The notes under the pieces are model-generated. The model was not told the origin of the DNA and ran no database searches. It saw only the letters and a list, made by a program, of their open reading frames with translations. This document shows positions 54,762 to 58,730 of a stretch of 64,000 bases of DNA, one piece after another. The position numbers were made by a program, and so were the translations under genes. Origin of the DNA: Solibacillus sp. FSL H8-0538 (GTDB lineage: Bacteria; Bacillota; Bacilli; Bacillales_A; Planococcaceae); NCBI RefSeq assembly GCF_038003525.1, contig NZ_JBBOPI010000001.1, positions 2,285,001 to 2,349,000 on the forward strand. Reading direction: 5' to 3'. How positions within the stretch are numbered: position 1 is the stretch's first letter; the number at the start of each line of letters is the position of its first letter.

Positions 54762-56213
54762 ATGAAATTTACAATACTAGCAACAAGTGATGTTCACGGG
54801 CAGGCGGAGCGATTTTCAAAGCTAGCACATATGATTTGCAGCAAACAGCCTGCCCTCCTTATTGATAACGGAGATTTTCTACAAGGGAGCCATTTAAGTT
54901 ATTTTTATGAACGGGTAAAGAAGTCCCCTCATCCATTGCTTCAAATGGCCAACGAGCTAAAATATGATGTTGCTGTTTTTGGTAACCATGAATTCAATTA
55001 TACGCTGAGCGAGATTGAAAAGATGCGTTTGGCGTGTAATTTCCCTTGGATTGCTGGGAATATTGGGGACTTTTCAAAGGCTTACTATATTAAAGAAATA
55101 GAAAATATACGTGTTGCTGTTGTCGGCATTGTCACGCATCATGTACCTGTTTGGGATGAAGAAAATCTCACACAAAATTTAACCTTCACAGATGCACTAG
55201 AAGCTGCAAAACACTGGGTCCATTATGTACGTGAGCAGGAGCAACCTAATTTAGTCATTCTTTGTTACCACGGTGGATTTGAACGCGATGTGGATACAGG
55301 AATCCCCTATGATGAAAATATGGGTGAAAATCAAGGCTATGCGATGCTTCAGGAAATTGACGGCATCGATATTTTCATTACTGGTCATCAGCATTTACAA
55401 TTTGCCACAAAAGTAGGTACTGTTCCAGTTATACAACCTGGCTCACATGCTCACTGCCTTGCACAAATTGACGTAACAATTGAAAACGGTTGTATTTCCC
55501 ATGAACCGAGCCTCGTTTTTGTTGATGAAGAAGCAGCTGGGGTGACTTTTTCTGAAGTCGATGCTTGGTTGGATTTGAAAGTCGGATATGTAAATGGAGA
55601 CATGTCGTTTCATGATTTCATGGAAATACGTCTTGCGGATCATCCATATTTACAGTTTTTACACAATGTACAACTCGAAGCAAGTAACGCTCAGCTATCC
55701 GTCACTGAACTGTTTTATCATGATTGTGGTGGTTTCTCTGGTAACGTAACTATCCGCGACATACTAAAAAATTATCCGCGAGCGAACTATTTACAAGTTA
55801 TAAAGCTTAGTGGAGCAGAAATTCGAGAAGCACTAGAGCAATGCGCTACAGTTTTTGCAATTGATAAAGACAGAGAAATTGCCCTTAGTACGATGGTGTA
55901 TTATCCGGAGCCTCAACCTTATGTGTATGATTTTTGGGGCGGTATCGAGTATGAACTTAATATTTCAAAAGCTGTTGGAAAGCGTGTGACCAAGCTGTTA
56001 TACAAAGGTGAACAAATTCTTAATGAAGCAACATTTGAAGTGGTCGTAAATAGCTACCGGGCTACAGGTGCACACGGCTTTCATATGATGAAAAAGCAGG
56101 CGATTCGTGAAATACGTATCGATATTCCTGAACTAATGATGCGTTATTTTAAAAAAAATAGCCCTATTCAACTAACAGACATTAAAAATTGGCATGTAAT
56201 TAAAAATAGCTAA
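54762..56213 (+). CDS. Bifunctional metallophosphatase/5'-nucleotidase
   Basis: A 483-residue protein: N-terminal calcineurin-like phosphatase with SDVHGQ, DNGDFLQGS, FGNHEFNY, YHGGFE and GHQH metal motifs (1-240), then the 5'-nucleotidase C-terminal domain (about 290-460). There is no signal peptide, unlike surface-bound UshA enzymes, so it probably acts in the cytosol on nucleotides or cyclic nucleotides. An orphan terminator lies in its leader. Confidence 0.92.
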   Translation: MKFTILATSDVHGQAERFSKLAHMICSKQPALLIDNGDFLQGSHLSYFYERVKKSPHPLLQMANELKYDVAVFGNHEFNYTLSEIEKMRLACNFPWIAGNIGDFSKAYYIKEIENIRVAVVGIVTHHVPVWDEENLTQNLTFTDALEAAKHWVHYVREQEQPNLVILCYHGGFERDVDTGIPYDENMGENQGYAMLQEIDGIDIFITGHQHLQFATKVGTVPVIQPGSHAHCLAQIDVTIENGCISHEPSLVFVDEEAAGVTFSEVDAWLDLKVGYVNGDMSFHDFMEIRLADHPYLQFLHNVQLEASNAQLSVTELFYHDCGGFSGNVTIRDILKNYPRANYLQVIKLSGAEIREALEQCATVFAIDKDREIALSTMVYYPEPQPYVYDFWGGIEYELNISKAVGKRVTKLLYKGEQILNEATFEVVVNSYRATGAHGFHMMKKQAIREIRIDIPELMMRYFKKNSPIQLTDIKNWHVIKNS

Positions 56214-56303
56214 TCTATCAACAAAATACATTGGGCTGTCAAATAAGTCAGATTTTGAATGAAACGGAGAAAGTCTTTTTACCATCGCTAAATACATAAA
56301 TAC

Positions 56304-56461
56304 GAAGGCACTGAAAAAGTTAATTTCTACTGAAAATTCTAATAAGTATTTGCTAAATAGTGAAAGATGATTGGTGCTCTGGCACTCGCTTTCTGAAAAA
56401 ATAAAGAAGAAGCATAAAATTATTATGAAAAAATAATGTTTCGGGTTTTTTCAGTGCCCGC
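56304..56461. mobile_element. MITE with 15-bp terminal repeats and 9-bp target duplication
   Basis: A 158-base non-coding element. Ends GAAGGCACTGAAAAA and (reverse complement) GCGGGCACTGAAAAA match at 13 of 15 positions. Identical CATAAATAC copies flank it at 56295-56303 and 56462-56470, a 9-base target duplication. The same terminal repeat adjoins the transposase relic at 30967, the probable parent family. Confidence 0.87.
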
Positions 56462-56670
56462 CATAAATACTAGCCCCTTTTTTAAACTCTTTCCTTCTTC
56501 AATCACTGAACACTCTGTTGATTAGTATTACAATAGTCTGCTACGAAATTGTTCAATGCTTTGCTAATACGAAAAATAAATCCTTTATTTTACAATTTAT
56601 CCTTAAATCACGAATCTTTTTATGCAGTCATTCGTAAGTAGTAGTAATCCTCAACGAAGGGGGTGTAAGC

Positions 56671-57210
56671 ATGTTATTCGGATTTTCAATAACGATGATT
56701 TATATGACCATTCTTGTCATTATCGGAAGCTGTACTCTTCTTTATTTATTCTTTGGAGATCTAACGGATGGTGTTAGTGAGGGTATTCCCTTTTTCGACC
56801 CAGCTGTTATTTTAGCATTCATCACGATTACTGCAGCAAGCGGCTACTTATTTGAAAAATTTACAGCTTGGTCAAGTCTCCTCGTTTTTATTGCAGCCCT
56901 TTTTTGTTCTAGTATCTTAACGGCATTACTGTACTTTTTCTTACTCATTCCACTTCGTTCGGCAGAGGTTTCACTCGCCTACACAGACGCATCACTTGAA
57001 GGTCAAACAGCAAAGGTTATTGTACCGGTACCTCTGGGTGGCTTTGGAGAAATCATTATTGAATCAGTAAACGGGATTATCGCGAAGCGGGCAGCAAGCT
57101 TTCACGAAGTAGAAATTCCTTATGGCACGGAAGTTTTGATTATTGAAGTAAAAGAAGGGACTGCTTTTGTAGCAATTTATGAACAGACCTGGCCTGAATA
57201 CTTAAACTAA
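56671..57210 (+). CDS. yuaF: NfeD family membrane protein (YuaF-like)
   Basis: A 179-residue protein with three or four helices (MIYMTILVIIGSCTLLYLFF; PAVILAFITITAASGYLF; LLVFIAALFCSSILTALLYFFLL) and a C-terminal OB-fold (EGQTAKVIVPVPLGGFGEIII...YGTEVLIIEV). NfeD proteins work with flotillins in membrane microdomains; the flotillin gene follows 12 bases later. In B. subtilis yuaF-floT is controlled by SigW; I did not locate that promoter. Confidence 0.9.
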   Translation: MLFGFSITMIYMTILVIIGSCTLLYLFFGDLTDGVSEGIPFFDPAVILAFITITAASGYLFEKFTAWSSLLVFIAALFCSSILTALLYFFLLIPLRSAEVSLAYTDASLEGQTAKVIVPVPLGGFGEIIIESVNGIIAKRAASFHEVEIPYGTEVLIIEVKEGTAFVAIYEQTWPEYLN

Positions 57211-57222
57211 GGAAGATGGATT

Positions 57223-58730
57223 ATGTTAGGAGCACTTATTGCCATTGGAATTGTGGCCTTTTTAATTGTGGCAATTGTGGCGGTGTATATTGCTAAATAC
57301 CGCACAGCTGGACCAGATGAGGCATTAATCGTTACAGGAAGCTATTTAGGATCAAAAAATGTACATACAGATGATGCCGGCAACCGCATTAAAATTATTC
57401 GCGGTGGTGGTGCATTTGTATTCCCTGTATTCCAGCAAGCGAAGCCGCTTAGTCTTTTATCGAGCAAATTAGATGTGACAACGCCTGAAGTGTATACAGA
57501 GCAAGGAGTTCCCGTTATGGCAGATGGCACAGCGATTATTAAAATCGGCGGCTCGATTTCTGAAATTGCGACAGCTGCGGAACAGTTTTTAGGGAAAGAA
57601 AAGCATGAACGCGAAAGTGAGGCGCGTGAAGTATTAGAAGGTCACTTACGCTCCATTTTAGGCTCCATGACCGTAGAAGAAATTTATAAAAATCGGGATA
57701 AATTCTCGCAGGAAGTACAACGTGTTGCCTCACAGGATTTAGCAAAGATGGGCCTAGTTATTGTGTCCTTTACAATTAAAGATGTACGTGACAAAAACGG
57801 CTACTTAGATTCACTCGGGAAGCCGCGTATTGCGCAGGTGAAGCGCGACGCAGACATTGCAACAGCTGAAGCAGATAAAGAAACTCGTATTAACGTGCGC
57901 AAGCAGCTCAAGAGGCACAAAAGGCAGAGCTTGAACGTGCGACTGAAATCGCTGAAGCTGAAAAAGAAAATGCATTAAAAGTAGCCGAGTTCCGCCGTGA
58001 GCAAGATATTGCAAAAGCCCGCGCTGACCAAGCATATGAACTCGAAACAGCCCGTGCGAAGCAGGAAGTAACCGAGCAAGAAATGCAAATTCAAATTATT
58101 GAACGTCAAAAACAAATTGAGTTAGAAGAACGTGAAATTTTGCGCCGCGAGAAGCAATATGATTCAGAAGTGAAGAAGAAGGCTGATGCCGAGCGTTACG
58201 CTGTTGAGCAACGTGCCAGTGCGGAAAAAATGAAGCAATTTGCAGAGGCGGATGCCGAAAAATATCGTATTGAAACACATGCACAAGCAGAAGCAGAGCG
58301 TGTTCGCTTAGATGGTTTAGCAAAAGCTGACGCCGAGCGTGCACAAGGTACAACAGAAGCAGACATCATTCGCTTACGTGGTCTTGCTGAAGCCGAAGCA
58401 AAACAAAAAATTGCGGAAGCGTTCGAGCAATATGGCCAGGCAGCTATTCTTGATATGGTTGTACGTATGATGCCAGAATATGCGAAACAAATTGCGAGCC
58501 CATTAGCGAACATCGATAAAATTACGGTAGTAGATACAGGAAGCGGTGTTGGTGGTGGAGCCAATAAAGTGACGTCCTACGCAACAAATTTAATGTCGAC
58601 ACTGCAGGAAACATTAAAAGAATCGTCCGGCATTGATATGAAGGATTTAATTGAAACGTATGTAGGGAAAGAAAAATCAGTGAAAGCCCCTGTTTTAACT
58701 TCAGAAGCAAAAGAGCTAATCAAGCAATAG
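57223..58730 (+). pseudogene. floT: Flotillin FloT (YuaG) gene with a one-base frameshift
   Basis: Frame 1 from 57223 carries the membrane hairpin, PHB/SPFH domain and GNRIKIIRGGGAFVFPV up to KETRI. The coding sense then moves to another frame (AQAAQEAQKAELERATEIAEAEKEN...), giving the EA-repeat coiled coil and the C-terminus ending at 58730. Restoring one A in ATTAA-CGTGCG (57891-57893) gives a 502-residue flotillin of normal length. Either recent inactivation or a base-calling error. The stop TAG coincides with THR copy 16. Confidence 0.9.

Follow-up and report, generated by a model that had tools for sequence, protein, structure and literature searches.

A 158-bp MITE lying between two genes of the window (the whole 64,000-nucleotide stretch of Solibacillus sp. 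FSL H8-0538 DNA analysed here) is very probably an internally deleted element moved in trans by a resident IS1182-family transposase, whose clade favours the axes of hairpins and duplicates 8-9 bp at the loop. Taken alone, the MITE is unremarkable and belongs to a known kind; the targeting pattern of its parent clade is the interesting part.

The element in the window and its genomic family

The element occupies window positions 56304-56461 and is flanked by perfect copies of CATAAATAC. Read directly, the sequence agrees exactly with the first-pass annotation, which had placed a 158-base element with terminal repeats and a perfect 9-base duplication at 56295-56470. The element and its surroundings comprise the following features, with the basis of each in brackets where one applies.

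54762-56213: 5'-nucleotidase-like gene, upstream of the MITE
56287-56290, + strand: GCTA, left arm of a weak 4-bp stem of the empty site, pairing with TAGC at 56471-56474 (score 10, p 0.43)
56295-56303, + strand: left target-site duplication CATAAATAC (sequence)
56304-56318, + strand: left terminal repeat GAAGGCACTGAAAAA; its counterpart in the resident IS is GAGGGCACTGAAAAA (sequence comparison)
56304-56393, + strand: left arm of the MITE, element positions 1-90, common to about 20 other genomic copies (genome comparison)
56388-56393, + strand: GCTTTC where 98 bp are missing from the interior compared with the 256-bp copy L002; in L002 the missing part is the GC-rich core, with the same six bases on both sides (comparison with L002)
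56388-56461, + strand: right arm of the MITE, element positions 85-158 (genome comparison)
56447-56461, - strand: right terminal repeat GCGGGCACTGAAAAA (sequence)
56462-56470, + strand: right target-site duplication CATAAATAC (sequence)
56471-56483, + strand: TAGCCCCTTTTTT, directly past the right duplication, a possible remnant of a terminator arm and T-tract (sequence; not significant alone)
56671-57210: 179-aa ORF next to a flotillin-like gene; the MITE lies between this ORF and the nucleotidase gene

Within the 15-bp ends, 12 bp are perfectly complementary (GGCACTGAAAAA / TTTTTCAGTGCC). These ends stand above chance, because GGCACTGAAAAA has 50 exact occurrences in the 3.93-Mb genome vs. 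0 for a reversed-pattern control and both arms have many relatives across the same genome. No ORF of at least 50 aa in the window's ORF list overlaps the 158 bp. The element is thus short and without a transposase gene, has inverted repeats shared with a resident IS, carries a duplication and has about 20 related copies, and on these sequence features we classify it as a MITE, as the first-pass annotation had done. That annotation had also proposed a genome search for the terminal repeat, which yielded both the further copies and the IS with the same ends.

The relatives, about 20 in all, are distributed over the element's own genome (3.93 Mb, two contigs). Among 18 other copies measured, most were 230-260 bp, three were about 318 bp and three were 193-214 bp long; the window copy is the shortest of the family in the genome, and its 158-bp form is present once. 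Two arms are common to all copies, and in most of them a GC-rich core of about 100 bp, foldable into a long hairpin, lies between the arms. Compared with its nearest full-length relative, L002 (256 bp), the window copy has four differences over 158 shared positions. The 98 bp present in L002 and absent from the window copy are this hairpin core and are bounded in L002 by two GCTTTC repeats; the window copy is therefore identified as a deletion form of a larger (~256-bp) MITE. Such a non-autonomous MITE would arise as an internally deleted derivative of the ~256-bp family, and the window copy would have lost its core by deletion between the two GCTTTC repeats, before or after landing. Perfect duplications surround other copies as well, measuring 9 bp in L001, L006 and L008 and 8 bp in L002, L009 and L028.

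There is a sizeable possibility, somewhat short of even, that the window copy is a dead relic unable to move, with its core lost in place after insertion, which is compatible with the main explanation. The single occurrence of the 158-bp form points that way, as does the right end, which departs from the family (CCCGC for CCCTC), while both terminal repeats and the duplication are intact. Small size would be no bar to mobility, because MITEs just 128-129 bp long, likewise bearing these ends and flanked by perfect duplications, exist in relatives (L213, L214, L221).

The only intact resident IS found with the MITE ends is 1872 bp long, in six identical copies and one diverged 1875-bp copy, all seven with 8-bp duplications. 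A version of the GC-rich core is present in both MITE and IS, in the latter between the left end and the transposase start. Because MITE and IS otherwise have little in common (~16 bp and the diverged core), the shared ends and similar duplications form the whole footing of mobilisation in trans, by which the transposase of the 1872-bp IS would move the MITE via the shared ends, with staggered target cuts leaving the 9-bp duplication.

Other elements of the genome carry the same kind of ends. Four loci (L037, L038, L083 and L237, of 1009, 918, 601 and 683 bp, all in G000) are gene-less or degraded members with 9-10 bp duplications, one with a mismatch. L003 (G000:C1:2175621-2175850) looks by eye like a fusion of the left half of the MITE with the diverged IS copy's left end in inverted orientation, and has no duplication.

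The same kind of core also occurs alone and in a second family of MITEs (L101-L107 and L109 in G000, e.g. C1:3316740-3316817), which differs in its ends, GGCTCTACACCAAAA / GGGTCTTTACCAAAA, and has 8-bp duplications. An ISL3 origin was rejected for this family, as the two intact ISL3 loci examined (L184, L185) were without its ends. The full-length MITE was matched by 208 of 261 family genomes, and among the matches listed most covered the core region only. For 28 aligned core sequences one consensus hairpin was predicted, and both partners vary in 9 of its 19 base pairs; because the structure derives from the same alignment, this covariation leans towards a hairpin, a conserved palindromic structure being what a REP-type repeat would show. 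A search of five core loci against Rfam gave no match.

Insertion at hairpin axes

We followed the same ends into relatives. GRGGGCACTGAAAAA was found in 68 of 261 genomes of the family, representing 14 of 19 genera, vs. two genomes for the reversed control, and paired ends in relatives lay 1.6-1.9 kb apart (IS), 128-250 bp apart (MITEs) or at distances between. Targets were reconstructed by joining the insertion flanks with one copy of the duplication kept, and hairpins centred on the duplication were scored. A strong hairpin was defined as a stem score of at least 19, a threshold picked after set 1 had been seen and reused unchanged for sets 2 and 3.

Set 1 comprised 48 insertions and solely pairs with a duplication, so that own-genome copies without one are absent (e.g. 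L003, L004, L013, L014, L020, L025, L027). Copies with an identical nearest 20 nt of flank were merged, the four IS copies at GGCGAAAG giving two entries; L160, whose ends are nested, appears twice, and the pairing is doubtful for L239 and L243. Set 2, fetched later, consisted of 29 pairs chosen among the matches listed for 12 genomes, and the five without a duplication were left unscored, giving 24. In set 3 the ends came from a de novo search of named genomes; of 52 loci, the 32 that were neither partial nor at a contig end were scanned, and nine of these gave no pair, leaving 23. The pooled count omits L279 and L280 as repeats of L223 and L225.

Strong centred hairpins were present in 20 of 48 set-1 sites vs. 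0.65% of 4000 random window positions, in 5 of 24 set-2 sites vs. 0.83% of 6000 random positions, and in 15 of 23 set-3 sites. When pooled with repeated places removed, 39 of 93 distinct insertions with 8-10 bp duplications had such a hairpin and 54 did not, vs. less than 1% of random sites with one. Under an RNAfold criterion (a stem of at least 10 bp), 25 of 72 sites in sets 1 and 2 were positive vs. 3.8% of 3000 random sites. Within set 1 the signal was stronger in relatives (17/26 at a score of at least 19) than in the home genome (3/22, or 6/22 at score 15); of the own-genome MITE copies with a duplication, 3 of 12 reached score 15 (expected 0.4, p 0.007).

The axis of the hairpin and the middle of the duplication coincided in 22 of the 39 cases and lay within 0.5 nt of each other in 30. 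Even loops had duplications of 8 (or 10) bp in 13 of 17 cases and odd loops had 9 bp in 16 of 22, such that loop parity fitted duplication length in 29 of 39 (p 0.003-0.004, a post hoc test with all sets pooled). Many of the target hairpins are terminator-like, with A-tracts before and T-tracts after them and the duplication spanning the loop, and 39 of 48 set-1 sites had A- or T-tracts on one side or the other, vs. 31% of random sites. These results indicate that the transposase clade with these ends tends to prefer hairpin axes in DNA, chiefly those of terminator-like hairpins; the transposase would insert at the axis, duplicating 8-9 bp around the loop.

GC-rich repeats hold other insertions: four of the seven home IS copies share one spot, and ten non-independent copies share another. 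The latter, in genome G138 (L249-L251, L253-L256, L259, L260, L228), are IS copies at a single spot of a GC-rich repeat resembling the core, with the sequence GACGCTGATC, a one-base variant of it or their complements, and 10-bp duplications. A separate case, L263 (G146:C4:155649-155853), is a 205-bp end pair with no duplication and with mutually reverse-complementary flanks, possibly the deletion outcome known for IS1272 or else a rearrangement.

The association with hairpins could also be a by-product of selection, if intergenic insertions survive and intergenic DNA is rich in terminators. The A- and T-tracts near set-1 sites are what an intergenic position predicts, yet intergenic survival does not explain why the duplication lies within 0.5 nt of the axis in 30 of 39 cases, and off-centre scoring of the same set-1 sequences (threshold at least 19) gave 0-1 of 48 for most offsets; with these controls, which are random positions and not matched terminators, we consider selection an improbable source of the pattern.

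Under the preferred reading of insertion at the hairpin axis, there is a further mechanism to which we give a little less than an even chance, namely that transposases of the clade recognise as their target a hairpin extruded as a cruciform, cutting both strands at positions symmetrical about its axis. The loop would then be duplicated, with the length of the duplication set by loop parity and not by a fixed transposase spacing, and terminators and the GC-rich hairpin of the IS and MITE themselves would serve as landing pads. If duplication length does track loop parity, genome data by themselves would suffice to test for structure-guided cutting.

At the window copy's own site, joining the flanks produced GCTA/TAGC around a 13-nt loop, followed by CCCTTTTTT, with a score of 10 that is matched by 43% of random sites. 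A terminator scan of 56100-56800 recognised none. Of 13 family relatives in which the locus includes both flanking genes, none had the MITE, and in most a terminator-like hairpin follows directly after the nucleotidase gene (judged by eye); intergenic spacing was 79-131 bp in 12 and 457 bp of unrelated sequence in one, with the target too diverged to align. Because relatives mostly show a hairpin behind the nucleotidase gene and none was recognised in the window, the MITE may have split a terminator, though we regard its landing in a now-decayed terminator of the upstream gene as possible but rather doubtful. Terminator splitting would alter read-through between neighbour genes with coding sequence spared.

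The first-pass annotation had taken the perfect duplication as a sign of recent insertion and had proposed looking for the empty site in relatives. No strain-level empty site was found, as the genus search returned the own genome alone and the family relatives are diverged (~70% identical at the flanking genes); with the four differences from L002, a recent insertion was not borne out. A pattern scan of genome contigs for the MITE left end gave no match, the home genome perhaps being outside the scanned set.

Two further observations concern the neighbourhood. Positions 56233-56276, just upstream of the MITE, hold a short relic that recurs at three other genomic places (L246-L248) and may be the end of another repeat. 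The flotillin gene appears to be in two parts (a frameshift, a pseudogene or an assembly error): the FloT model covers its first half only, in ORF 57223-57978 (416.6 bits, cut-off 700), and a second ORF at 58083-58730 resembles the remainder (by eye).

Transposase family of the parent IS

The resident IS transposase scored 358.3 bits against the IS1182 model NF033551 (cut-off 270), and five transposases from relatives scored 345-378 bits against the same model and cut-off. By this comparison the IS carrying the MITE ends is assigned to the IS1182 family. The resident transposases carry the DDE_Tnp_1 domain (Pfam PF01609); another PF01609 protein of the genome, in a 454-aa frame, was nearest to the IS1182 model at 232 bits, below the cut-off of 270. 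The NCBIfam IS4 model NF033592 had no match over its cut-off of 115 in the genome, and of two sub-threshold matches (23 and 19 bits) one sits at the diverged IS1182 transposase. A YREK motif is a mark of IS4.

The nine-base duplication and the PF01609 domain would suit mobilisation by an IS4-family element, which the first-pass annotation had read from the nine bases, but we rejected this parentage as very improbable indeed, given that the intact IS with the same ends is IS1182 (358 bits), no IS4-model match exceeded the cut-off, and even the additional PF01609 protein is closest to IS1182. Nine bases are undiagnostic here, because the resident IS produces 8 bp and the MITE copies 8 or 9.

Relation to known systems

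The MITE resembles the bacterial MITEs described in the available text of PMC10969869 in being short and gene-less, with the ends of a resident IS, duplications and many size-variable copies. It is unlike them, as far as they are described there, in that most copies enclose a GC-rich hairpin core akin to the leader of the IS, a core that the window copy has lost. Insertion into palindromic repeats recalls IS1397 and ISPpu10, linked to repetitive extragenic palindromes by the titles in PMC10433421; some copies here likewise lie in GC-rich palindromic repeats, whereas unrelated terminator-like sequences are also targeted.

With its NF033551 match over the cut-off, the parent IS resembles the IS1182 family, some members of which have palindromic targets (Siguier et al. 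2015, as quoted in PMC4923244 and PMC5678879). Such palindrome or hairpin targeting was found for the clade at 39 of 93 insertions, and not at the window copy's own site. Duplications vary in the family, as for ISPse1 with 4 bp (PMC3281130, on our reading of the table column) vs. 8-9 bp here. The literature searched held no account of loop duplication at terminators by IS1182 elements; most subscription papers and the ISfinder notes were outside its scope, and we claim no priority.

The closest likeness is to IS1272/TnSha1, an IS1182-family element of staphylococci. Furi et al. 2016 (PMC4923244) describe its insertion at hairpins, of which five were confirmed as terminators; the target undergoes deletion and is not duplicated. 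In Wan et al. 2017 (PMC5678879), IS1272 replaces inverted repeats, and duplication of the loop is drawn as one hypothetical route (Fig. 13, pathway c). By these papers' account the transposase family is the same, and in both cases hairpin targets are chosen by structure; the hosts differ, and the likeness concerns family and targeting. Stem-loop replacement of the IS1272 kind was not what we found in the scored insertions, which have 8-10 bp duplications with the arms kept (five of the 29 set-2 pairs lacked a duplication). Because IS1272, as described there, removes all or part of the stem-loop without duplication, whereas the clade here keeps the stem arms and duplicates 8-9 bp at the loop, the clade's targeting is a variant of the published IS1272 behaviour. 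The wider pattern matters because IS1272 entered the literature as an IS that targets hairpins and deletes them, and a related clade, present in many Bacillota, seems to follow the route of loop duplication, formerly only drawn as a possibility.
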